Shown piece by piece: positions 28,353-40,004 of a DNA stretch of 60,149 bases. This DNA is from Syntrophobacterales bacterium. Its GTDB lineage: Bacteria > Desulfobacterota > Syntrophorhabdia > Syntrophorhabdales > Syntrophorhabdaceae. The position numbers and the translations under genes were made by a program. The DNA is taken from the NCBI GenBank assembly GCA_031274925.1, contig JAISPL010000040.1, forward strand, positions 1 to 60,149, written 5' to 3'. Position 1 is the stretch's first letter. Each line of letters starts with the position of its first letter. The notes below the pieces were generated by a model that had not been told where the DNA came from, searched no databases, and saw nothing but the letters and a program-made list of their open reading frames with translations.

Positions 28353-30317
28353 ATGAGGTACGCAGAGACAGGATATAATTTAGAGATTGATTTGGCAACA
28401 GGAAACGTTGAAAGGGTGGAAACAGACCCGCGACTGACGGAACTTCACCTGGGTGGTCTGGGCACCAACGCCAAGATGATATGGGACAGGGTCCCTGCGG
28501 ACGTTAAACCCTTTGACGCCGAGAATCTGCTTATATTCAGCAGCGGGCTTTTATGCGGCACACCTGCGCCGGGCGCCAATCGTACGATTGTAAGCGCCTA
28601 TTCCCCTCAGACCGAGTTATTCGGGTATTCAATGATGGGGGGATTCTGGGCGCCGGAATTGAAATATGCAGGCTATGACAAGGTGGTTCTTCGGAACAAG
28701 TCCCCGAATCTGGTGTACATATGGATAAACAACGATAAGGTGGAAATCCGTGACGCCTCTCATCTGAAGGGCAAGGGCGCTGTTGAAACTGCGGAGCTTA
28801 TTAAGAAAGAGATAAATGATCCTGGCGCACAGGTGGCGGCCATCGGTCTTGCCGGTGAAAATAGGGTTTTCATGGCGTCCATTGAGCAGGGCCGTTCAAG
28901 CGCCAGCCGGCTCGGGTTGGGTGCCGTCATGGGTGACAAAGGGGTAAAGGCAATAGCCGTCCGCGGGACCAAGGATGTAAACCTTGCGAAACCAGCCGAG
29001 TTTGTAAAACTTTGCGAAGAAGTCCTGGACTATATAAAGCTCCGCGAAGAAAACCCGGTCCCCGGCGTTATGCCGATTCTGGCCGGTCTTGGGTCGCCCC
29101 AGGAGATGAAGCACATTGATGAGAAGTGGCACACTGAAAACTTCATGTGGGGGAACTCCCGTGTCCGGAGAAAAGATTTCTGGACCAAGGAAATTGCAGA
29201 GAAATGGAAGGATGTCCAGCTGAACGTACGGACCAGGCTGATAAGCTGCTACAATTGTCCGATGAAATGCGGTGCCATAATCTCCGTGCCGGGTATCTCG
29301 ACTTACATGATGAAATGCTTCTCAAAACTGACGTATGCAATGGCGGCTTTTGTCGACGATCTGGACTTCGGTTTCAGGATCGCGCAGCGCGCCACTGAAT
29401 ACGGAGTAGATGGATTCTCAGTGCCTCAGGCCATGGCCTTTGGTTTTGAACTTCGAGAGGAAGGCATCTTGGGCGAGGAATATTTTGAAGGATGTCCATC
29501 AGACAACGAAGGGAAGTTTTATTGGATGCTCGACAGGCTTGTTAGACGCGAAGGGATCGGAGATATTCTTGCTGACGGTACTTACTGGGCTTCCAAGAAG
29601 ATCGGCAACGGCGCAGAAAAGTTCGCCCACAATAATATCAAGAAACATGAACAGTTGCCTCTCAAGCTCGGAATGCTGAACCCCGTTTATTATCTCATGT
29701 ATGCAACGGGCGAAAAGATCAATATCACGCAGATTGAAGGGCAGTTCCCACAGTCGCCTTTCCCTACCATGGAAGAGAGAGAAGCTTTTATAAAAGATTG
29801 GATTCAGTGTCCGGACGACAAATTTAAGAAATACCTCCTTGACTGGGAGTTAAGAGGAGAATTCGCGAATCCCACGTATCCTACCCCTGAGATTGCGAGT
29901 GATATTGTCGACTGGCAGGAGATGATACATTACTTTGACGATGCCCTCGGCATCTGTGCAGGTCTGTCGTCATTCCCCCTGAAGCCTCCGTACCATATCC
30001 ACAATTTCCCGAAGATTATCTCGGCGGGAACGGGCATGGAACTGGACGAAGAAGGCCTGAAGGAGATTTACAAGAGAAACAGGAATCTAGTCAGGTCCCT
30101 TAATGTAAGGCGAGGAATGCGGAGAGCCGATGAGGTTCCGCCTGAAGACCATTGGAAGAAGAGATTCCCCGAGCTTGAACAGAAGCTTCTGGATACCTAC
30201 TACGAGATGAAAGGTTGGGACAATGACGGTATCCCCAAGAAAGAGTCTTTAGAGAGACTGGGCTTGGATTATGTAGCCGAAGACTTTGAGAAGAGAGGTA
30301 TAATCAAAAATGGCTAA
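28353..30317 (+). CDS. bamB: class II benzoyl-CoA reductase, tungsten catalytic subunit BamB
   Basis: The 654-residue protein belongs to the aldehyde ferredoxin oxidoreductase family. In BamB a tungsten bis-pyranopterin cofactor reduces the benzoyl-CoA ring to cyclohexa-1,5-diene-1-carbonyl-CoA without ATP hydrolysis. The [4Fe-4S] ligands appear as Cys299, Cys302 and Cys306 (CYNCPMKC) and Cys535 (DDALGICAG). The N-terminal AOR signature is GGLGTNAKMIWD, and GAVMGDKGVKAIAVRGTKD follows. Length fits BamB. Other AOR-family enzymes (aldehyde oxidoreductases) are the alternative, but the seven genes behind it match bamC-I in order, which settles the call. Its end overlaps bamC by 8 bp. Confidence 0.96.
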   Translation: MRYAETGYNLEIDLATGNVERVETDPRLTELHLGGLGTNAKMIWDRVPADVKPFDAENLLIFSSGLLCGTPAPGANRTIVSAYSPQTELFGYSMMGGFWAPELKYAGYDKVVLRNKSPNLVYIWINNDKVEIRDASHLKGKGAVETAELIKKEINDPGAQVAAIGLAGENRVFMASIEQGRSSASRLGLGAVMGDKGVKAIAVRGTKDVNLAKPAEFVKLCEEVLDYIKLREENPVPGVMPILAGLGSPQEMKHIDEKWHTENFMWGNSRVRRKDFWTKEIAEKWKDVQLNVRTRLISCYNCPMKCGAIISVPGISTYMMKCFSKLTYAMAAFVDDLDFGFRIAQRATEYGVDGFSVPQAMAFGFELREEGILGEEYFEGCPSDNEGKFYWMLDRLVRREGIGDILADGTYWASKKIGNGAEKFAHNNIKKHEQLPLKLGMLNPVYYLMYATGEKINITQIEGQFPQSPFPTMEEREAFIKDWIQCPDDKFKKYLLDWELRGEFANPTYPTPEIASDIVDWQEMIHYFDDALGICAGLSSFPLKPPYHIHNFPKIISAGTGMELDEEGLKEIYKRNRNLVRSLNVRRGMRRADEVPPEDHWKKRFPELEQKLLDTYYEMKGWDNDGIPKKESLERLGLDYVAEDFEKRGIIKNG

Positions 30318-30849
30318 AGTAAAAAAGAAAATCAAAACAATCAAAATTGATCTTGATAAGTGTAACGGTTGCCGGGCATGTGAGGCGATATGCTCCGCCT
30401 TTCACGCTACCCCAAAATATAGCAGTAATAACCCGGCCAGGTCGCGCATCCGTATGATCCGCGACCCGCTGAGAGACGTGTATGTTCCCGTGTACGCGGG
30501 TGAGTATACAGCGGCAGAGTGTATGGGCAGGGATAAATATATAATTGACGGAAAAGAATATGATGAATGTGGTTTCTGCAGGGCTTCCTGTCCGTCGCGT
30601 GATGCTTTCAAAGAACCGGATTCTGGTCTCCCGCTCAAGTGCGATATGTGTGAAGATGACCCGCCTCTGGATAAACCCCTCTGCGTGAAGTGGTGCCTCA
30701 ACGATGCCTTGATTTATGAAGAGAGGGAGGAGGAAGTGGAGGAAGACATAAAGGCGGAAGATGTTCAGATAGGGTTGGAATCCATGGTTGACAAGTACGG
30801 AATGGAAAAAGTGATGGATACCATTGTCCGTATGTCGCAGAAGGACTAA
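30310..30849 (+). CDS. bamC: benzoyl-CoA reductase FeS subunit BamC
   Basis: The 179-residue ferredoxin-like protein carries electrons to BamB. Cysteine motifs are CNGCRACEAICSAFH, CGFCRASCP, CDMCED and CVKWC, arranged like the electron-transfer subunits of molybdopterin enzymes and enough for three or four [4Fe-4S] clusters. A Lys-rich start and an acidic Glu-rich tail flank the core. It overlaps bamB by 8 bp, so the two are translationally coupled, in line with the BamBC core seen in purified enzymes. Confidence 0.94.
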   Translation: MAKVKKKIKTIKIDLDKCNGCRACEAICSAFHATPKYSSNNPARSRIRMIRDPLRDVYVPVYAGEYTAAECMGRDKYIIDGKEYDECGFCRASCPSRDAFKEPDSGLPLKCDMCEDDPPLDKPLCVKWCLNDALIYEEREEEVEEDIKAEDVQIGLESMVDKYGMEKVMDTIVRMSQKD

Positions 30850-30883
30850 ACCACATTAAGGCAAAATAAAGAGGATAAATAAC

Positions 30884-32035
30884 GTGGAAACTGTAGCCCC
30901 CTTTAAAGAGGTAATCGACGAAATAAAAGAAAAAGGCGGAGATCAGGTCAGGTACTGCTACCAGTGCGGCAAGTGTGACACAGTCTGCCCTTGGAACAAG
31001 GTGACGAAGTTCTCAATGCGCAAGCTCATACGGGAAGCGACCTTCGGTCTCACAGAGATTGAGAGCGAAGAAATCTGGCGTTGCACCACGTGTGGCAAGT
31101 GCCCCCAACGTTGCCCAAGGGATGTGAAGCAGATTGATGACATGATGGCCCTGAGGAGGATGGCAACAAGTTACGGTGTCTTTCCTGGGACCGTAAAGCC
31201 AGTGAAGACGGTAGCCTCAGGTCTTAGCGCCCAAGGAAACCCCTTCAATGAAGAGCGTAGCGCCAGGACGGCATGGGCGGAGGGTCTCTCGGTAAAACCT
31301 TTCAAGGAGGAGATGGAGATACTATACTTTCCCTGCTGTTACGCCGCCTATGATCCGAGACTCAAAAAGGTAGCACAGGCCACCGCAAAGATTCTGAACA
31401 AGGCGGGCGTGAGTTACGGGATTTTGGGTGCCAAGGATAGCTGTTGCGGAGAGAGCGTCCGTAAGACCGGAAACGAAGACCTTTTCAAGAAACTCGCCAA
31501 GGAGAACATCAAAAATTTTATTGACAACGGAGTAAAGAAGATTCTTGTCTCTTCTCCCCATTGTTACCATACTTTCAAGAACGAGTATCCCCAGTTTATG
31601 GTGAACTTTGAGGTGATCCACATCTCCCAATACCTTTCTGAACTTGTAAACAGCGGGAAGCTCGAGATTAAGAAAGCTTATGAAAAGAAAGTTGCTTACC
31701 ACGATCCATGTTATCTCGGTCGCCATAACGGCGTATTCGATGAACCCCGGGAGGTCCTGCAGAAGACCCCTGGCATAGAGATGGTGGAACTTGCCGAGAC
31801 AAAACTCGACAGCACATGTTGCGGTATGGGTGGAGGCAGGGTCTGGATGGAGACGGAAAAACATGAGCGCTTCTCGAATATCAGGGTGGAACAGGCGATT
31901 GAGACTGGGGCGAAAGAGCTGGTTACTTCCTGTCCATACTGCATTGTTGCTTTTGAAGACAGTCGTCTGGTAATGAACAAGGCGGATGACATCGAGATCA
32001 AGGATATCACGGAGATTCTCCAGGAAATAATTTAG
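30884..32035 (+). CDS. bamD: BamD, HdrD-like FeS subunit
   Basis: The 383-residue protein has an N-terminal ferredoxin domain with two [4Fe-4S] motifs (CYQCGKCDTVC and CTTCGKCPQRC) and two CCG domains (around FPCCYAAYDP/DSCCGESVRKTG and HDPCYLGRHNG/STCCGMGGGR). This layout matches the catalytic HdrD subunit of heterodisulfide reductase, whose CCG cysteines bind unusual FeS clusters. In the Bam complex it likely links the BamE flavin module to other electron carriers. The start is GTG behind AGAGGA. It lies 34 bp after bamC and 24 bp before bamE. Confidence 0.93.
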   Translation: METVAPFKEVIDEIKEKGGDQVRYCYQCGKCDTVCPWNKVTKFSMRKLIREATFGLTEIESEEIWRCTTCGKCPQRCPRDVKQIDDMMALRRMATSYGVFPGTVKPVKTVASGLSAQGNPFNEERSARTAWAEGLSVKPFKEEMEILYFPCCYAAYDPRLKKVAQATAKILNKAGVSYGILGAKDSCCGESVRKTGNEDLFKKLAKENIKNFIDNGVKKILVSSPHCYHTFKNEYPQFMVNFEVIHISQYLSELVNSGKLEIKKAYEKKVAYHDPCYLGRHNGVFDEPREVLQKTPGIEMVELAETKLDSTCCGMGGGRVWMETEKHERFSNIRVEQAIETGAKELVTSCPYCIVAFEDSRLVMNKADDIEIKDITEILQEII

Positions 32036-32059
32036 AGAATGAAGATGAGGTGATAAGAG

Positions 32060-35000
32060 GTGGAAAACGTAATAGAGTTAAAGACAAATATTCAACAACT
32101 TCGTAAAACTCTCGGAGATGCGGATTTCGGAGATGTCATGGTTGTTGGCGGAGGTATCAGCGGCATTCAGGCTTCCCTTGACTTGGCCACCGCAGGGTTT
32201 AAAGTGTACTTGGTCGAGAAGGCTCCGTCGATCGGCGGCCATATGGCCCAGCTCGACAAGACCTTTCCGACCAACGACTGCTCCATGTGAATACTCGCAC
32301 CTAAACTGGTCGAGGTCGGCCGGCATCCAAATGTAGAGGTACTCACCTATACTGAAGTAAAAGATATAGAAGGAGATGTAGGAAACTTTAAGGTAACGTT
32401 AACAAGAAAGCCTCGGTATATTATTGAGGAGAAATGCACAGGTTGCACGAGTTGCGTGGAGTACTGCCCGGTTAAGTATCCAGATGAGTTCAACCAGGAC
32501 ATATCACAGAATAAGGCGGTCCACATATACTTTCCCCAGGCGATTCCCCTGGTTGCGTATATTGATGAGAGCTGTCTTTATCTCAAAGAAAAAAAGTGCC
32601 GCATCTGTGAAGGAGTCTGTAAGAACGATGCCATTGATCTCAATCAGGAACCTGAGAAATTAGAGATCAATGTGGGAGCTGTCATTCTGGCGGCGGGATT
32701 CGATTCTTTCGATCCCAAGGTACGAGAGGAGTACCATTACGGGGATTTCGAGAACGTGATTACCAGCATGGACTTTGAGAGACTCTTGTCCTCTACGGGT
32801 GCCTATGGCGGAGAAATACTGAGATCGTCAGATCTCAAGCACCCCAAGAAGTTAGCGTGGATCCAGTGCGTTGGGTCCCGCCAGGTTATTGAAGGAGGCA
32901 ACAGTTACTGTTCGGCTGTATGCTGTACGTACACGCAAAAACAGGTTATTCTTACCAAAGACCATCACCCAGAATCGGAGTGCACAATCTTCCATAATGA
33001 TGTCCGCTCCTATGGGAAAGACTTTGAACGGTACTACCAGAGGACGGAAAACCTCCCTGGTGTCCGTTTCTTTAGAAGCTATACCTCCATCGTGAGAGAG
33101 GACCCGGTGACGAAGAATATCTTCGTCAGGTACTCCACTGCGGAAGATGGGGTGAAAGAGGAAGAGTTCGACATGGTGGTGCTCTCCATCGGCCTTAATC
33201 CTCCGAAGCAGGCCAAAGAACTGTCCGATAAGTACGGCATTGAACTCACGGACCATAATTTCGCGAAAATCTCCGAAACCAACCCCATGGTTACCAACAA
33301 GGAAGGCATCTTTGTGACCGGTGCGTTCCAGGGTCCCGTTGACATCCCTGAGTCTGTGTTCAGTGCCTCCGGCGCCGGTTCTCAGATTGGTGAGCTTTTG
33401 GACTACCGTCGGGGTGCTCTTACGAAAGAAAGGATCTATCCAGAAGAGAGAGATGTCTCCCAGGAAGAACCGAGAATAGGAGTTTTTGTCTGCCATTGCG
33501 GTGCGAATATCTCAAGCGTTGTCAATATCTCCGACACAGTCGAATACTGCAAGACATTGCCCAATGTGGTCCACGCGCAAAACCAGGTATTCTCGTGCGC
33601 TACCAACTCGGCGAAAGAGATTACCGACATTACCAAAGAAAAAGGTTTAAACCGGGTAGTGGTCGCTGCGTGCTCCCCGAGGACCCTTGAGCCCCTTTTC
33701 AGGGACACCCTCCGTGAGGCGGGAATAAACCAATATTACTATGAGATGGCAAATATAAGGGAGCACAACTCTTGGGTCCACTCGAAAGAGAAGGAAGAGG
33801 CGACCAAGAAGGCAAAAGATATCATCCGCATGTCGGTGGCCCGCGCCTGCCATTTGGAACCCCTCCAGGAATTCGATCTTCCAGTTGACAAAAGGGCTCT
33901 TATAGTTGGCGGAGGGATGGCCGGTATGACGTCCGCCCTTTCCATTGCAAAACAAGGCCATGAGGTCTACCTTATTGAGAAAGAGAATGATTTGGGCGGT
34001 ATGGCCAATAAGATCCATACCACCTTAGAGGGGCTTGATGTTCAGGCCTACCTCAAGGACCTTAAGAAAAAGATCTACGAGAATCCGCTGATCCACGTCT
34101 ATACAAATGCGACGATCACCAATGCCACGGGTTACATTGGGAACTTTGTCACTACCGTGAAGTCCGACCGGGGAGTGACTGAGATCAAACACGGCGCGTC
34201 GGTTCTCGCCATAGGCGCCGAAGTCTATAAACCTACGGAGTACCTATATGGTCAGGATGAGCGGGTCATGACCCACTTGGAACTGGAAGAAAAGATATTC
34301 CAGGGAGACGAGAAGGTCGCGAACGCCCAAAGCCTCGTTATGATCCAGTGCGTGGGTTGCAGGAACGAAGAGAGAAACTATTGCAGCAGAATCTGTTGCA
34401 GCGAGTCTGTGAAAAATGGGTTGCTTCTCAAAGAGAAGAATCCGGACATGGATATTTACATCCTTTTCAGAGACGTGAGAACCTATGGTCTTCGGGAAGA
34501 CTTCTACCGCGAAGCGGCAGCCAAAGGTGTGCGGTTCATCCGCTATGAGCAGACGGACCCGCCGGTTGTGGAACCGGGTGAGGCTGAGGATGGACGGGAA
34601 GTCCTAAAAGTAACGTTGACCGATTACGTTCTTGGCAATAAAATTGAGCTTGATGCCGATGTGGTGGCCCTGGCGGCAGCTGTCATCCCCTCTTCAGCCA
34701 CCAAAGAGATTGCGGGATGGTTTAAAGTAGTCTTAAGCCCGGACGGATTCTTTAAGGAAGCCCATGTGAAACTGAGACCGGTCGAGTTTGCGACGGACGG
34801 CGTTTATCTCTGCGGACTTGCCCATTATCCCAAGTTTATGGCTGAGACAATCAATCAGTCCTATGGAGCTGCGGGCAGGGTACTCACACTCCTCTCCCAC
34901 GATACGGTCGTTGCCTCTGGCTCCGTCTGCGAGGTGGACGAGGATAAATGCGTCTCCTGTGGGGCATGCATCACTGCATGTACCTATGGAGCCATTGATT

Positions 35001-35200
35001 TCTACGAAAGTCCGAATGGAAGAAAGGCGCGGGTGAATCCTGTCCTCTGCAAGGGAGACGGTCTTTGCAATACGAAGTGTGCCACGAGCGCTATAATGTT
35101 GAAGCACTTTACCGATGAAGAGGTTTTAAGTGAGATTGATGCGGGAGTCTCCGATGAGGAGATCATACGCCAGATTGATAAAGCGATGGGAAACGCATAG
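32060..35200 (+). CDS. bamE: BamE, HdrA-like flavoprotein with selenocysteine (UGA at codon 77)
   Basis: One open frame of 1046 residues runs from the GTG at 32060 (SD GAGGTGA) to 35200 if the in-frame TGA at 32288-32290 is read as selenocysteine. The frame does not change across it, and the next residues ([10 protein letters not shown]) continue the HdrA motif TNDCSxCxLAPK, placing Sec77 at the conserved Cys near FAD. The order is FAD domain 1 ([12 protein letters not shown], about 29), ferredoxin clusters [11 protein letters not shown] (about 126) and CRICEGVC (about 180), VCHCGANIS (about 477), FAD domain 2 ([12 protein letters not shown], about 615), and C-terminal clusters [11 protein letters not shown] (about 964) and near 996. 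It is thus a double HdrA-type module, probably the electron-bifurcating flavin subunit. Naive gene callers would split it at 32290. Confidence 0.95.
32308..32321 (+). promoter_or_regulatory. predicted bacterial SECIS hairpin of bamE
   Basis: Starting 20 nt into the sequence that begins with the UGA, GGTCG pairs with CGGCC (five pairs, one G-U) around the loop AGGT. The loop lies 22 nt after the UGA, within the 16-37 nt range usual for bacterial SECIS elements, and AGGU resembles the apical loop of E. coli fdhF. SelB would bind here to deliver Sec-tRNA. Confidence 0.7.
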
Positions 35201-35227
35201 AAGAATAAAGCCGGGAGGTGAGAAAGA

Positions 35228-35995
35228 ATGAGTGCAGCACTTAAATTTAAACCGAAAATATTAGGTTTTGTCTGCCACTGGTGAGCGTACGGAGCTGCTG
35301 ACCTGGCTGGAGTTTCCAGACTGCAATATACAACTGAAATGAGGCTTATTCGTGTCATGTGTTCCGGCAGAGTGGATATGTCATTTGTACTCCGGGCTTT
35401 CTCGAAGGGAGCAGACGGTGTGTTTGTAGGGGCCTGTCATTTAAGCGAATGTAACTATATTACCCATGGTAATTACCATACCTTGAACATGGTGCTTCTG
35501 CTGAGAAAAGTGTTGGAACAGATGGAGATAAACCCGGAAAGACTCAGGATGTCATTTATGTCCGGGTCCGAAGCAAACCTGTTTGTCGAACATGTGAATG
35601 ATTTTGTCAAGAAGGTGAAGGAACTTGGACCCTTGGGTAAAAGCGAAGAAATAGACCCGGAGATCATGAAGTTCAGGCTTAATACGGCAACAAAACTTAT
35701 CCCTTACATAAGACTTGTTGAAAGGGAAAGGCTCCGGGCGCCCGTTATGTCGGAAGAAGAGTATTACAAGTTCTTTGCGTCTGAAGGGTTGGGGAAATTG
35801 TTTAACGAAACAATTGTGGAGAAATTGGCTATAGGCCAGATCGTCTCCCTCCTGAAGGGAGGGCCCCTTACCACGGCGGAAATTGCGACGGGCATAGGTC
35901 TTACCCCTTCGGAGGTTTCGAAGCACCTTAACAGTTCGTCAAGACAGAGACTGGTAAGGTACGATACAGAGCAGAATCGCTATGCCCTGGCGTGA
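35228..35995 (+). CDS. bamF: BamF, MvhD/VhuD-like FeS protein with selenocysteine (UGA at codon 19)
   Basis: The true frame starts at the ATG at 35228 (SD GGGAGGTGAG) and runs to 35995, 255 residues, when TGA at 35282-35284 is read as selenocysteine. The N-terminus reads ILGFVCHW-Sec-AYGAADLAG, matching the MvhD family pattern FxCxWCxYxxADLAG with Sec in place of Cys. Further family cysteines follow in VMCSGRVD and GACHLSECNY. MvhD-type proteins carry a [2Fe-2S] cluster and pass electrons between a donor complex and HdrA. Residues about 190-255 add a winged-helix-like tail (GPLTTAEIATGIGLTPSEVS). An annotation starting at 35339 would lose the first 37 residues. Confidence 0.94.
35307..35319 (+). 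promoter_or_regulatory. predicted bacterial SECIS hairpin of bamF
   Basis: CTGG pairs with CCAG around AGTTT (one further A-T pair can close the loop to GTT). The stem begins 22 nt and the loop about 26 nt after the UGA, the usual SECIS distance, and the loop holds the GU expected for SelB contact. The stem is short, so a fold of the whole 40 nt is needed. Confidence 0.55.
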
Positions 35996-36013
35996 GAGAA
36001 GAGGATAGAACAC

Positions 36014-36466
36014 ATGAATAACGAGAAAATCGACCAGATCATTGACAAACATCACAGCGAGGCGAGTTCGCTAATCCAGATACTGCTTGAGATCCAGAGC
36101 GAGTATCATTGGCTTCCCAAGGAAGCTTTGGAGAGAGTGGCTGAGAGACTCCAGGTCCCCATGACCAGAGTCCAGCACATTGCGACTTTTTACAAAGCCT
36201 TCAGTCTGGTTCCTAAGGGACGTCATGAGATCCACATCTGTATGGGTACCGCCTGCCACGTGAGAGGCGCTTCACGCGTTCTCGATACAGTGGAGGAACT
36301 GACAGGGATCAAGCCAGGAGAGACAGACCTCGACCTGAAATTCAGTCTGCAGACCGTGAACTGTTTAGGTTGTTGCGCCCTTGGGCCCGTGCTGGAGATA
36401 GATGGAAAGACCCACGGCAAGGTATCGCCCGCCCAGATGGCGGAAGTGCTAAAAAATTACGAGTAG
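36014..36466 (+). CDS. bamG: BamG, NuoE-like [2Fe-2S] subunit
   Basis: The 150-residue thioredoxin-fold ferredoxin resembles NuoE, the 24-kDa subunit of complex I. The four cluster ligands are seen in CMGTACHVRGA and CLGCCALGPV. The N-terminal helices (about residues 1-70) match the NuoE helical part. Together with BamH it forms a diaphorase-like module that exchanges electrons with NAD(H). It lies 18 bp after bamF and 10 bp before bamH. Confidence 0.94.
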   Translation: MNNEKIDQIIDKHHSEASSLIQILLEIQSEYHWLPKEALERVAERLQVPMTRVQHIATFYKAFSLVPKGRHEIHICMGTACHVRGASRVLDTVEELTGIKPGETDLDLKFSLQTVNCLGCCALGPVLEIDGKTHGKVSPAQMAEVLKNYE

Positions 36467-36476
36467 GAAGAACATT

Positions 36477-38402
36477 ATGGCGCGTATAAATTCACCATTT
36501 GAATTGGAAGAACTCAGGAAGCAGATTCTGTCGGTAAGAGACCCGAACAAACCTTGTATCACGCTATGCGCCGGATCGGCCTGTAACGCCTCCGGTAGCA
36601 GGGAGGTTGCCAGAAGCCTTGAAGAGGAGATTCAAAAGCAGGGCTTGAGCAGTACTGTGGATATCAGGCAGACGGGTTGCCACGGATACTGCGAGCGGGG
36701 TCCCATTATTGTCGTGGGCCCCGAGAAAATATGCTATTTTCAGATAAAGCCGGAGGATATTGCTGAAATAATCACCGAGACTATCGTGAACAAGAAGGTG
36801 GTGGATCGTCTTCTTTATGTTGATCCCGCCACCAACGAGAAAATTGTCCATGAGCACGACATTCCTTTCTATAAAAACCAGGAGCGTATCGTTTTCGGCG
36901 CTAATAGCAGTGTCGATCCGAAGAGCATTGACGACTATCTGGCGATCGGGGGTTACAGTGCCCTTGCTAAAGCCCTCTCCCAGATGACCCCGGATGGGGT
37001 GTTGCAGGAAGTGAAGAAGGCAAATCTCAGGGGTCGTGGCGGTGGAGGTTTCCCTGCAGGTGTGAAATGGGAAGGGTCCCGCAATGCGCCCGGAGATATC
37101 AAGTACGTGATTGTAAATGCTGACGAGGGTGACCCAGGGGCGTACATGGATAGGTCCCTATTGGAAGGGAATCCTCATGCGGTCTTGGAAGGTCTTGCCA
37201 TTGGCGCCTATACGGTAGGCTGTTCCGAAGGTTACATCTACGTCCGGCAGGAATATCCCTTGGCCGTTGAGAACATCTTTACCGCCATCAGGCAGGCTGA
37301 AGAGTACGGTCTCTTGGGCGAGAACATCCTCGGTACAGGCTTCAGTTTCAAGGTAATCGTTCATCAAGGTGCGGGCGCTTTCGTTTGTGGTGAGTCAACT
37401 GCCCTTATGACCGCCCTTGAGGGGAGGGCCGGAGAGCCACGACCCAAGTATATCCGTTCTAACGTTGTGGGCCTCTGGGGAAGACCGAGTGTGCTCAACA
37501 ATGTGGAGACTTGGGCGAATGTTCCCCTTATTATCAATAAAGGTGCCGACTGGTTTACCAGTATCGGTACTGAGACCTCAAAAGGAACAAAAATCTTTTC
37601 CCTCGTGGGAAAGATCACCAACACGGGCCTCGTTGAAGTGCCCATGGGTACCCCAATCAAAGATATAATCTATACGATAGGCGGCGGTATTCCAGGAGGT
37701 AAGAAATTCAAGGCAGTACAGACCGGAGGACCATCCGGAGGATGCCTCCCCGAGAGCCTTCTTGATCTGCCCGTCGGTTTTGATGAGCTCACCAAGGCAG
37801 GCTCAATGATGGGTTCAGGCGGCATGATCGTAATGGATGAAGATACGTGTATGGTGGACGTTGCCCGCTACTTCCTCGACTTTCTGACCGATGAATCGTG
37901 CGGCAAGTGTGTTCCCTGTCGTGAGGGTATGAGGCAGATGTTGAAGATCCTCACAAATATTACCCAAGGCAAAGGGAGGGAAGGCGATATTGAGCTTCTT
38001 GAGGAGTTGGCCGAGACCGCCATTGAAGGAGCCCTCTGTGCATTGGGTAAAAGCTCACCAAATCCGTTTTTGAGTACCCTCAAATATTTCAGAGACGAAT
38101 ACGAAGCCCACGTGAAGGAAAAAAGATGCCCGGCACTGTCCTGTAAGGAATTGATTTCCTTCTACATTGAGCCGGAGAAGTGCAAAGCCTGTATGACCTG
38201 CGCCAGGAAATGTCCCTCGGACGCGATTATAAGCGGCAAAAACCTGATCCATATCGTTGACCAGGAGAAATGTACGAAGTGTGGAACATGCTTCGACGTA
38301 TGTCCTCCTCGTTTTCGTGCGGTGACGAAAATCTCAGGCGTGCCTGTGCCGCCCCCCATACCTGAAGAAGCGAGAACGATAGTCAGGGAGAAACAAAAAT
38401 GA
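36477..38402 (+). CDS. bamH: BamH, NuoF-like NADH-binding flavin subunit
   Basis: The 641-residue protein is a fusion: an N-terminal thioredoxin-like [2Fe-2S] domain (CAGSACNASGS, CHGYCERGP), a NuoF core with the FMN/NADH site (LRGRGGGGFPAGVKWE, VCGESTALMTALEGRAGEPR), an SLBB region, the C-terminal [4Fe-4S] motif CGKCVPCREG, and two extra ferredoxin clusters (CKACMTCARKC, CTKCGTCFDVC). This layout occurs in HydB-type subunits of bifurcating hydrogenases and in BamH. It should oxidise or reduce NAD(H) for the Bam complex. Its TGA overlaps the bamI ATG (ATGA). Confidence 0.95.
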   Translation: MARINSPFELEELRKQILSVRDPNKPCITLCAGSACNASGSREVARSLEEEIQKQGLSSTVDIRQTGCHGYCERGPIIVVGPEKICYFQIKPEDIAEIITETIVNKKVVDRLLYVDPATNEKIVHEHDIPFYKNQERIVFGANSSVDPKSIDDYLAIGGYSALAKALSQMTPDGVLQEVKKANLRGRGGGGFPAGVKWEGSRNAPGDIKYVIVNADEGDPGAYMDRSLLEGNPHAVLEGLAIGAYTVGCSEGYIYVRQEYPLAVENIFTAIRQAEEYGLLGENILGTGFSFKVIVHQGAGAFVCGESTALMTALEGRAGEPRPKYIRSNVVGLWGRPSVLNNVETWANVPLIINKGADWFTSIGTETSKGTKIFSLVGKITNTGLVEVPMGTPIKDIIYTIGGGIPGGKKFKAVQTGGPSGGCLPESLLDLPVGFDELTKAGSMMGSGGMIVMDEDTCMVDVARYFLDFLTDESCGKCVPCREGMRQMLKILTNITQGKGREGDIELLEELAETAIEGALCALGKSSPNPFLSTLKYFRDEYEAHVKEKRCPALSCKELISFYIEPEKCKACMTCARKCPSDAIISGKNLIHIVDQEKCTKCGTCFDVCPPRFRAVTKISGVPVPPPIPEEARTIVREKQK

Positions 38403-39004
38403 GTGAAATCCTCTTTGAGATTGATGGAAAACAAGTAACGGCGAAAGAGGGGATGACCCTCCTTGAAGCAGCAAAGACTGTAGGGATAAAAATACCCACC
38501 CTTTGCTACCACGAGAAGCTTGAACCCTTTGGGGGTTGCAGGCTCTGCATCGTGGAGGTGGAGAGCCGCGGGTGGACTAAACTCGCTGTCTCCTGCGTCT
38601 ACCCCGTGGAGAAAAATATTATCGTAAGAACGAGGTCCGAGAAGGTGGATAGGATCCGAAGAATGATCCTCCAACTTCTGCTTGCCCATGCCCCTGATGC
38701 TTTTGATCTTCAGGATCTGGCAAAAGAGTACGGCGCGGATAAAGACCGTTTTGAGAAGGAACCTTCTTTCTGCGTCCATTGCGGTCTCTGCGTAAGGTAT
38801 TGTGATGAAGTGAAGAAAAAGAATGCTATTGGCTTTGTTGATAGAGGTATCCGCAAAGAGATTAACTTCATCCCTGATATTGCCGCAAAGGAGTGCTGGA
38901 ATTGTAAGGAATGCTTTCCCCTCTGCCCCACCGAGGCGCTCCAGGCAGCTTTCGTGCTTGTTGAGGCCCTCGCATTTCCGGCGGCTGAAGCCGCAAAAGG
39001 ATAA
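38399..39004 (+). CDS. bamI: BamI, NuoG N-terminal-like ferredoxin subunit
   Basis: The 201-residue protein matches the N-terminal part of NuoG: a [2Fe-2S] domain (LCYHEKLEPFGGCRLC, followed by SCVYPV) and a C-terminal pair of [4Fe-4S] motifs (CVHCGLCVRYC and CWNCKECFPLC). The molybdopterin-fold part of NuoG is absent. It would connect BamH with the rest of the complex. It is the last bam gene, coupled to bamH by an ATGA overlap. Confidence 0.93.
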   Translation: MSEILFEIDGKQVTAKEGMTLLEAAKTVGIKIPTLCYHEKLEPFGGCRLCIVEVESRGWTKLAVSCVYPVEKNIIVRTRSEKVDRIRRMILQLLLAHAPDAFDLQDLAKEYGADKDRFEKEPSFCVHCGLCVRYCDEVKKKNAIGFVDRGIRKEINFIPDIAAKECWNCKECFPLCPTEALQAAFVLVEALAFPAAEAAKG

Positions 39005-39385
39005 CGTATTTATATCTCCGGACCACCAGGCCCGGATGATTCACGATGTCAGCCGATGCGGGCCGTCTACGGGCGGACCGCATGCGGGCTTACCTGCTCT
39101 GCCATTTCAAACTAATCGTGGCCGTTGATTGAATCCTGCAGGATTAGAATTGAGGTTTGTTTTCAAGGAATGCGCTGCATAGGTCTTAAGGACGGGACAT
39201 TGAGAATGGACCCCGCATTCCGGCTCCATGAGGTGAAAGCTCCACAACCGTCTTGAGGAATCAGGCAATAACGGCAGGTAGGATGAAATCGCTTGGGGTG
39301 TGAGCCGGAGAACTTGACAACCGTGATGAGGATGAGATTAACTGAGTGTATATGTCATTCAAGAACCAAGTTTTGGAGGTGAACC
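39005..39385. other. gap after the bam operon
   Basis: About 380 bases without an acceptable gene. A perfect 14-bp palindrome, AATCCTGCAGGATT (39132-39145), is the only clear structure and could be an operator. A weak promoter (TTGACA at 39314-39319) may serve the small genes that follow. No terminator with a T-run was seen after bamI, so read-through is possible. Confidence 0.45.
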
Positions 39386-39568
39386 ATGAACGAAAACGAG
39401 AAGCTGATACTGAGTGCGGCAGTTGCCTGTGATGAGAAAAAAATGCTTTCCTGTGCAAAAGCGCATAGACTGGCGCAGGAACACGAAATCTCGTTGAAAG
39501 AGATCGGTGATACGTGCAATCGTTTAGGCATCAAGATAACCGAATGCGAACTTGGTTGCTTCAAGTAA
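39386..39568 (+). CDS. 60-residue conserved-looking protein next to a MobB-like gene
   Basis: The start ATG has a strong ribosome-binding site (TTGGAGGTGAACC). The product is small and helical, with AKAHRLAQEHEISLKEIGDT followed by LGIKITECELGCFK, which looks like a short helix-turn-helix ending in a Cys-x4-Cys-type tail. I cannot name the family; I believe similar small proteins occur beside molybdenum/tungsten cofactor genes, but this is from memory. It is separated by a single base from the MobB-like gene, so the two are one unit. Confidence 0.7.
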   Translation: MNENEKLILSAAVACDEKKMLSCAKAHRLAQEHEISLKEIGDTCNRLGIKITECELGCFK

Positions 39569-39569
39569 T

Positions 39570-40004
39570 ATGAAGGTTATTGTAGTATCAGGTGCACGGT
39601 CCAATGTGGGGAAGACCCATCTTGCACATGCGCTGGAGAAACTTCTGCCTGGTGCGGTGCGGGTAAAAATTGGTCATCATGTGCGCAAAGCTGGAGGTGA
39701 TCCCAATTTCTACGGTATGGGTACGAGTTTTTCAGCCATTGCAGCAGAGCATGGGAGCGCCCGCTTTGTGATAATTGAGAGTAACCGCATACTTGAGGAG
39801 ATTACCCCGGAATGTGTGATTTACCTTTCCGCCGATAGCCCTAAACCCTCGGCTGAGATTGCAGCCAGAAAGGCGGACATTATCCGAGGGGAAGCCGTTC
39901 CGGACTCCACGATATCGGATCTCGCGAAGCGGATGGGATGCAATAAAGCAGTCATCAGGAAAATCGTGGAATTGTCGGGTGCGTCGACCATCGTTGGATA
40001 TTAA
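39570..40004 (+). CDS. MobB-like P-loop NTPase
   Basis: The 144-residue protein starts MKVIVVSGARSNVGKTHLAH, a Walker A of the MobB type, and ends with a helix-turn-helix-like segment (STISDLAKRMGCNKAVIRKI). MobB binds GTP and helps form the dinucleotide molybdenum or tungsten cofactor. I chose the ATG at 39570 because the P-loop strand then begins at residue 1; an upstream in-frame ATG at 39552 lies inside the preceding gene. The location right after the tungsten-enzyme operon suggests a role in cofactor supply for BamB. It is shorter than standard MobB and may be a divergent relative. It converges with the next gene, overlapping by 4 bp. Confidence 0.72.
   Translation: MKVIVVSGARSNVGKTHLAHALEKLLPGAVRVKIGHHVRKAGGDPNFYGMGTSFSAIAAEHGSARFVIIESNRILEEITPECVIYLSADSPKPSAEIAARKADIIRGEAVPDSTISDLAKRMGCNKAVIRKIVELSGASTIVGY

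Follow-up and report, generated by a model that had tools for sequence, protein, structure and literature searches.

A two-gene unit downstream of a bam operon

The window analyzed here is the whole 60,149-nucleotide stretch of contig JAISPL010000040.1 from a Syntrophobacterales bacterium (GCA_031274925.1; order Syntrophorhabdales, phylum Desulfobacterota), whose genome is a draft with a completeness of about 97%. Two short genes follow the operon of a tungsten enzyme, and the relevant features are as follows.

28353-39004, + strand: upstream bam operon (context only), from the order of its open reading frames (ORFs) and the AFOR_N/AFOR_C match of bamB
28353-30317, + strand: AOR-family bamB, with a Pfam match to AFOR_N/AFOR_C
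38399-39004, + strand: last bam gene, from ORF order
39005-39385, + strand: intergenic gap of 381 bases between the last bam gene and the small-protein gene, covered by Rfam, promoter, and terminator scans
39375-39379, + strand: GGAGG ribosome-binding site of the small-protein gene, read from the sequence, 6 bases before the ATG
39386-39568, + strand: small protein of 60 amino acids, from its ORF and ribosome-binding site, family alignments, AlphaFold model, and context tests; modeled as helix-strand-helix-helix-strand, with a C-terminal CxLGCF
39570-40004, + strand: P-loop NTPase of 144 amino acids, from its ORF and a 70% identical copy in a congener; a predicted remote, shortened MobB relative with a helix-helix-strand C-terminus (low-confidence model)

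The names bamC to bamI for genes of the upstream operon are assumed labels, taken in part from the original prediction, which was made on the letters of this DNA alone. That prediction described a 60-residue ORF with an excellent ribosome-binding site, a second ORF one base after the first, and a location following a tungsten-enzyme operon. All of these observations hold, with a single base between the small-protein stop codon and the NTPase ATG at 39570, and with 9 kb between bamB and the pair. A TTG-started frame of 150 amino acids from 39552 is the same frame as the NTPase ORF. The small protein is matched at E≤0.01 in 42 of the 46 genomes of the order, including that of the window, and a second genome of the genus (G032) carries an NTPase that is 70% identical in the same position after the small-protein gene. 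Therefore, both genes are real beyond chance.

Regulatory elements in front of the pair (a riboswitch, a promoter, or a terminator) were considered and rejected, since scans of the 381-base gap found neither an Rfam match at the gathering score nor a sigma-70-type promoter, and no terminator on the + strand. Genome-wide searches revealed one credible copy each of the small-protein and NTPase genes. A candidate second NTPase copy was discarded, as its match had an E value of 0.23 and its frame lies opposite a longer, conserved-looking ORF that we take to be Sua5-like. We also rejected a phage or plasmid origin, given that the small protein of the window has no match in plasmids or phages. Likewise, plasmid searches with the NTPase and with the small protein of one distant locus (L085) returned no match, and pattern matches to the small protein in viral contigs were not confirmed on checking.

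Sequence and predicted fold of the small protein

The original prediction could name no family for the 60-residue protein, and the libraries used here do not name one either. The protein has no match in Pfam or NCBIfam at E≤1 and no credible match in PHROGs or among PDB sequences. When 24 relatives were searched, only weak and scattered Pfam matches emerged, the best of which was DUF7645 (7 of the 24 members at E≤1, best 5.7e-4), and the best NCBIfam match had an E value of 0.03. A PDB sequence search with the family profile reached E 0.07 at best. Moreover, no described small protein of moeA operons was found in the open literature library with the terms that were used.

Structure prediction of the small protein alone, as had been proposed originally, yielded a small helix-turn-helix-like AlphaFold model (pLDDT 78.9) with helices at residues 3-15, 23-33, and 37-47 and strands at 20-22 and 50-52, followed by a tail. 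Foldseek identified no significant structure match (best E 1.7). The best structural Z score of 6.1 is in the range of common arrangements, and the middling matches are generic ones to homeodomain, ribosomal L11 C-terminal, and Lrp/AsnC folds.

Residues C23, C54, and F59 are identical in 138 of 138 domain rows, an invariance that describes what the profile finds, as the rows were collected with a family profile that itself contains these residues. C58, the other cysteine of the tail, persists in 105 of the 112 single-domain rows (39/39 Bacillota-side, 27/32 Desulfobacterota, 35/37 from the order, and 4/4 from named genomes), and 107 of these 112 rows terminate within 0-1 residues past the aligned domain. 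The most conserved positions are the cysteines and the extreme C-terminus rather than a recognition helix. The protein in the window is slightly acidic (pI 6.1), within a family range of 4.4-9.9. Together, these features favor a C-terminus that engages in chemistry with a thiol, a metal, or a partner rather than a protein that binds DNA, without deciding between them.

Tandem two-domain forms of the family also exist. Proteins of roughly 145 amino acids with two tandem domains occur at loci L053, L054, L060, and L063 and in many genomes of the Desulfobacterota. The last tail cysteine is mostly lost in these tandem proteins, with C58 kept in just 5 of 26 rows. No cofactor gene lies within 5 kb of the four tandem loci.

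Linkage to cofactor genes on the Bacillota side

A search of named genomes that was blind to gene context returned 11 loci, six of them loci from the order that were already in hand. Beyond the order, the small-protein gene adjoins fdhD and molybdopterin-oxidoreductase genes in Ammonifex, moaA, moaC, and MOSC/moaB-like genes in a Syntrophomonadaceae genome, and moaA in Ca. Formimonas. No cofactor gene is near the copy from Dehalococcoidia, where the contig ends 530 bases beyond, or near a two-domain copy from Spirochaetes. The Moco/W riboswitch RF01055 lies 48 and 134 nt upstream of the small-protein gene at L084 and L085, and none was found at L082 or L083.

This linkage could be quantified in the phylum of Ca. 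Formimonas (Bacillota-side), where profile A4 matches 138 of 398 genomes, about a third, at E≤1e-9. MoeA is present in 137 of the 138 carriers vs 129 of the 260 non-carriers (Fisher p 4.5e-30, uncorrected for phylogeny). Among the MoeA matches listed, 97 carriers have one, which is on the contig of the small-protein gene in 82 and on other contigs only in 15. For 74 of these 82 carriers, the small-protein match lies 14-201 bp upstream of the listed MoeA match on the same strand, and for the other 8 the listed MoeA is not directly downstream.

We also inspected 40 Bacillota-side loci (L176-L215), hand-picked in uneven steps down the ranking rather than at random. A cofactor-biosynthesis or FdhD gene lies within 500 bp in 36 of these and within 5 kb in 38, the exceptions being L202 and L206. 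Our context counts come from one uniform rerun, with distances measured between ORFs called from their first possible start, and the gene order across these 40 loci partly reflects shared ancestry. An RF01055 riboswitch occurs 41-262 nt upstream of the small-protein gene on the same strand at 18 of the 40 loci, elsewhere in the stretch at 4, and not at all at the gathering score in the remaining 18. The arrangements vary, involving moeA, moaA, fdhD, or molybdopterin oxidoreductase, among the loci returned by the context-blind search of named genomes.

The small-protein family in the order and phylum of the window

Ten of the 46 genomes of the order, including that of the window, carry a close clade of the small protein, in which the other nine members are 53-70% identical to the window copy. 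These ten form one firm branch (support 100/100) in a tree of 137 domains and 58 columns that is otherwise mostly unresolved, and this branch is the only one relied on here. Genes for the cofactor, for AOR, or for a molybdopterin oxidoreductase occur within 5 kb of the small-protein gene at nine of the ten loci. The window itself is the exception, its only link to molybdenum or tungsten being the bam operon. At six clade loci, the small-protein gene precedes moeA and a radical SAM gene on the same strand. Another moeA faces them, and five of the six loci also have an AOR/BamB-type gene farther on. In G032, the pair adjoins moeA, fdhD, and an AOR gene, the last of which is 3.9 kb away. At two further clade loci, the small-protein gene is beside molybdopterin-oxidoreductase (formate-dehydrogenase-like) genes. 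No RF01055 riboswitch was found at the window or its nine nearest loci.

The wider family, present in 141 of 297 genomes of the Desulfobacterota, exhibits a different pattern. Genes of these three kinds (cofactor, AOR, molybdopterin oxidoreductase) come within 5 kb at only 4 of 40 sampled loci (L216-L255, likewise hand-picked in uneven steps down the ranking and not random), and for only 1 of the 31 other copies in the order of the window. A scan for RNA families at 12 of the 40 Desulfobacterota loci found no Moco riboswitch. MoeA is matched in 134 of the 141 carriers vs 134 of the 156 non-carriers (p 0.006), a comparison with little power, and 7 of the 141 carriers have no MoeA match. Either cofactor genes are scattered in these genomes or the small-protein family has a wider role.

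Other neighbors recur as well. Single-domain copies at seven loci of one genus (L044, L047, L065, L067, L070, L071, and L072) are beside a cysteine-synthase-like PALP enzyme (checked with Pfam for L065), and several of the PALP loci also adjoin an ODP-flavodoxin protein (checked with Pfam for L050). These neighbors hint at sulfur or redox chemistry.

The NTPase and its relation to MobB

Full-length matches to the NTPase, found with a profile built from two copies, are confined to 2 of 395 genomes of the phylum, namely that of the window and G032. In two more of the 395 genomes, the match is limited to about the first 35 residues. The P-loop noted originally is present as the Walker A motif ARSNVGKT, and the protein also has a Walker-B-like strand (FVIIESN). 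Both the Walker A motif and the acidic IIES are conserved in G032. The structural model made from the single sequence is poor (mean pLDDT 58.5), and a PDB search gave nothing at E≤0.001. The helix-helix-strand end of this low-confidence model fits the helix-turn-helix-like C-terminus that had been described.

The designation "MobB-like" in the original prediction stands only in the sense of remote similarity. The window NTPase matches no Pfam family at E≤1, including PF03205. However, two distant genomes (L074 and L075) encode relatives of roughly 200 amino acids, P-loop NTPases directly after moaA, that score under the Pfam MobB cut-off (E 1.1e-4 and 3.5e-4). The NTPase of the window aligns with one of these at 33% identity over 135 columns, and its match to the other covers the P-loop only. 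Because an alignment of the window and G032 copies with both moaA-linked relatives matches the MobBs of the order at 90% probability, vs 15% and coverage of the P-loop only for the two true copies alone, we consider the NTPase by sequence comparison to be a remote, shortened MobB relative that falls outside the family's own test. At L074, the moaA-linked NTPase gene is followed by a DUF1786 gene.

A search for an equivalent housekeeping mobB, raised originally as a possible objection, gave no PF03205 match at E≤0.01 in the genome of the window. PF03205 is over its cut-off in 38 of the 46 genomes of the order, and both NTPase genomes are among the other eight, which suggests that the NTPase replaces MobB. 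This suggestion is based on two genomes, and the chance of both being among the eight of 46 without MobB is about 0.027, a weak statistic. G031, the third genome of this genus, encodes MobB but lacks both the small protein and the NTPase.

Other genes of the window genome

The same genome carries a second bam operon (L136; G000:C41, 58000-68148), which begins near a contig end and whose last genes fall outside this interval. Its bamB is 52% identical to that of the window. The bamE-like (HdrA-type) gene of the window (32060-35200, + strand) is one frame broken by an in-frame TGA at 32288-32290 (NDCSM[U]ILAPK). The gene therefore probably encodes a selenoprotein. Its homologue in the second operon is an uninterrupted frame of 1037 amino acids.

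Elsewhere in the genome (L135; G000:C45, 4000-23000), two moeA genes (the second longer), moaA, moaC, and a MOSC/MoCF fusion form a row of housekeeping cofactor genes, among which no mobB was seen. The genes before this row are presumably involved in phosphate transport.

Possible functions of the pair

The original prediction raised the possibility that the pair serves tungsten cofactor insertion, perhaps as factors dedicated to BamB. The tie of the small-protein family to Mo/W cofactor genes, which is strong in one phylum and in the clade of the window, supports part of this idea, and both known copies of the pair are indeed near AOR-family genes. A maturation factor dedicated to BamB draws on this same evidence, namely the position of the window pair after the bam operon and of the G032 pair near an AOR-family gene, but such a factor is very improbable. 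The closest small-protein clade is present in 9 and absent from 31 of the 40 genomes of the order with a BamB match of at least 60% identity (partial matches included). Similarly, the NTPase is present in 2 and absent from 12 of 14 tested BamB genomes, which are those among the 17 genomes of the order in the phylum draw for the NTPase. We therefore reject the idea that the pair is conserved with BamB in general. Furthermore, the genome has a second bam operon, yet only one copy of each pair gene. The small-protein gene mostly occurs without the NTPase gene, beside moeA, moaA, fdhD, or molybdopterin-oxidoreductase genes. The best reading is that the role of the small protein is general and not specific to BamB.

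Perhaps the small protein instead regulates Mo/W cofactor operons by binding DNA or RNA, its helix-turn-helix contacting the leader while its cysteines sense metal, redox state, or cofactor. The predicted fold, with its middling resemblance to homeodomain, L11, and Lrp/AsnC proteins, and the location directly ahead of cofactor genes in most sampled Bacillota-side loci would suit such a function. However, a Moco/W riboswitch often controls the operon already (18/40), no structure match is significant, and neither the pI of the window protein, the spread of pI in the family, nor the concentration of conservation outside the recognition helix speaks for nucleic acid binding, and we regard a regulator as doubtful. 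Still less probable, in our judgment, is a general thiol, sulfur, or redox role for which the location near cofactor genes is local to one lineage and the window pair is unrelated to BamB. It is consistent with the Desulfobacterota sample, in which most copies are beside other genes and several are by PALP or ODP-flavodoxin genes, and with the carriers there that have no MoeA. Such a role is difficult to reconcile with the near-complete co-occurrence with MoeA and the riboswitch control in the other phylum, or with the variety of cofactor-gene arrangements among loci fetched blind to context.

We favor, with a probability of roughly one half, a joint reading in which the Moco-linked members of the small-protein family are an unrecognised accessory for the assembly or delivery of the Mo/W-pterin cofactor, and in which the NTPase of the window stands in for MobB. 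If so, these tiny helix-turn-helix-like proteins, an unnamed family ending in the cysteine motif CxLGCF, would most likely act alongside either MoeA, the insertion step for tungstate or molybdate, or FdhD. The conserved cysteine that opens helix 2 and the two within the C-terminal tail may hold or pass sulfur or metal, which could be likened to the function of sulfur carriers with a C-terminal cysteine tail. The window NTPase, whose translation directly follows that of the small protein, would substitute for MobB, and the pair might help to load cofactor into tungsten enzymes, the closest being BamB. PMC13197769 reports a MoeA1-MobB platform for tungstate insertion, and PMC10102598 infers that Aor of Desulfovibrio needs both moeA copies for its tungsten cofactor. 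A tiny protein that is paired with a MobB-like NTPase in the vicinity of a tungsten enzyme fits this picture. We also entertain, as a tentative proposal with the odds somewhat against it, that the small protein is a standard component of Mo/W-pterin assembly across many anaerobic bacteria, donating sulfur or metal from its cysteine tail at the MoeA/FdhD stage, and that this genus couples it to a minimal replacement for MobB.

The gene set for Moco biosynthesis is commonly regarded as complete. The small protein, nearly always accompanied by moeA on the Bacillota side and in most of the loci examined there encoded immediately before moeA or moaA, would be a missing part of it. It could also be relevant to the selection and insertion of tungsten in such bacteria. 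Recognition of the family would also be a gain for annotation.

Comparison with known systems

The Moco/W riboswitch operons (RF01055; PMC2408646) resemble the 18 Bacillota-side loci at which the small-protein gene is directly behind the riboswitch, and differ from the window and its nine nearest loci in this same element. MobB (PF03205), which works with MobA/MoeA in forming the dinucleotide cofactor, shares with the NTPase the P-loop, the strand after it, and a Walker-B-like acidic strand, and the remote profile similarity through relatives directly after moaA adds to this likeness. In contrast, the NTPase has 144 amino acids vs mostly 168-219 in the open frames of the order's MobBs over the cut-off, lacks a stretch after the first strands as well as a PF03205 match, and has its own helix-helix-strand end (low-confidence model).

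The small protein is similar to DsrC/TusE sulfur carriers in having a small helical or helix-turn-helix-like body and a conserved cysteine at the very C-terminus. However, it has no sequence match to them in the family searches, is much shorter, and ends in CxLGCF. With ModE and other helix-turn-helix molybdate regulators, the small protein shares a predicted helix-turn-helix-like fold and the Mo/W gene context. Because it has only 60 amino acids, it is without a molybdate-binding domain, and what it conserves instead are its cysteines.
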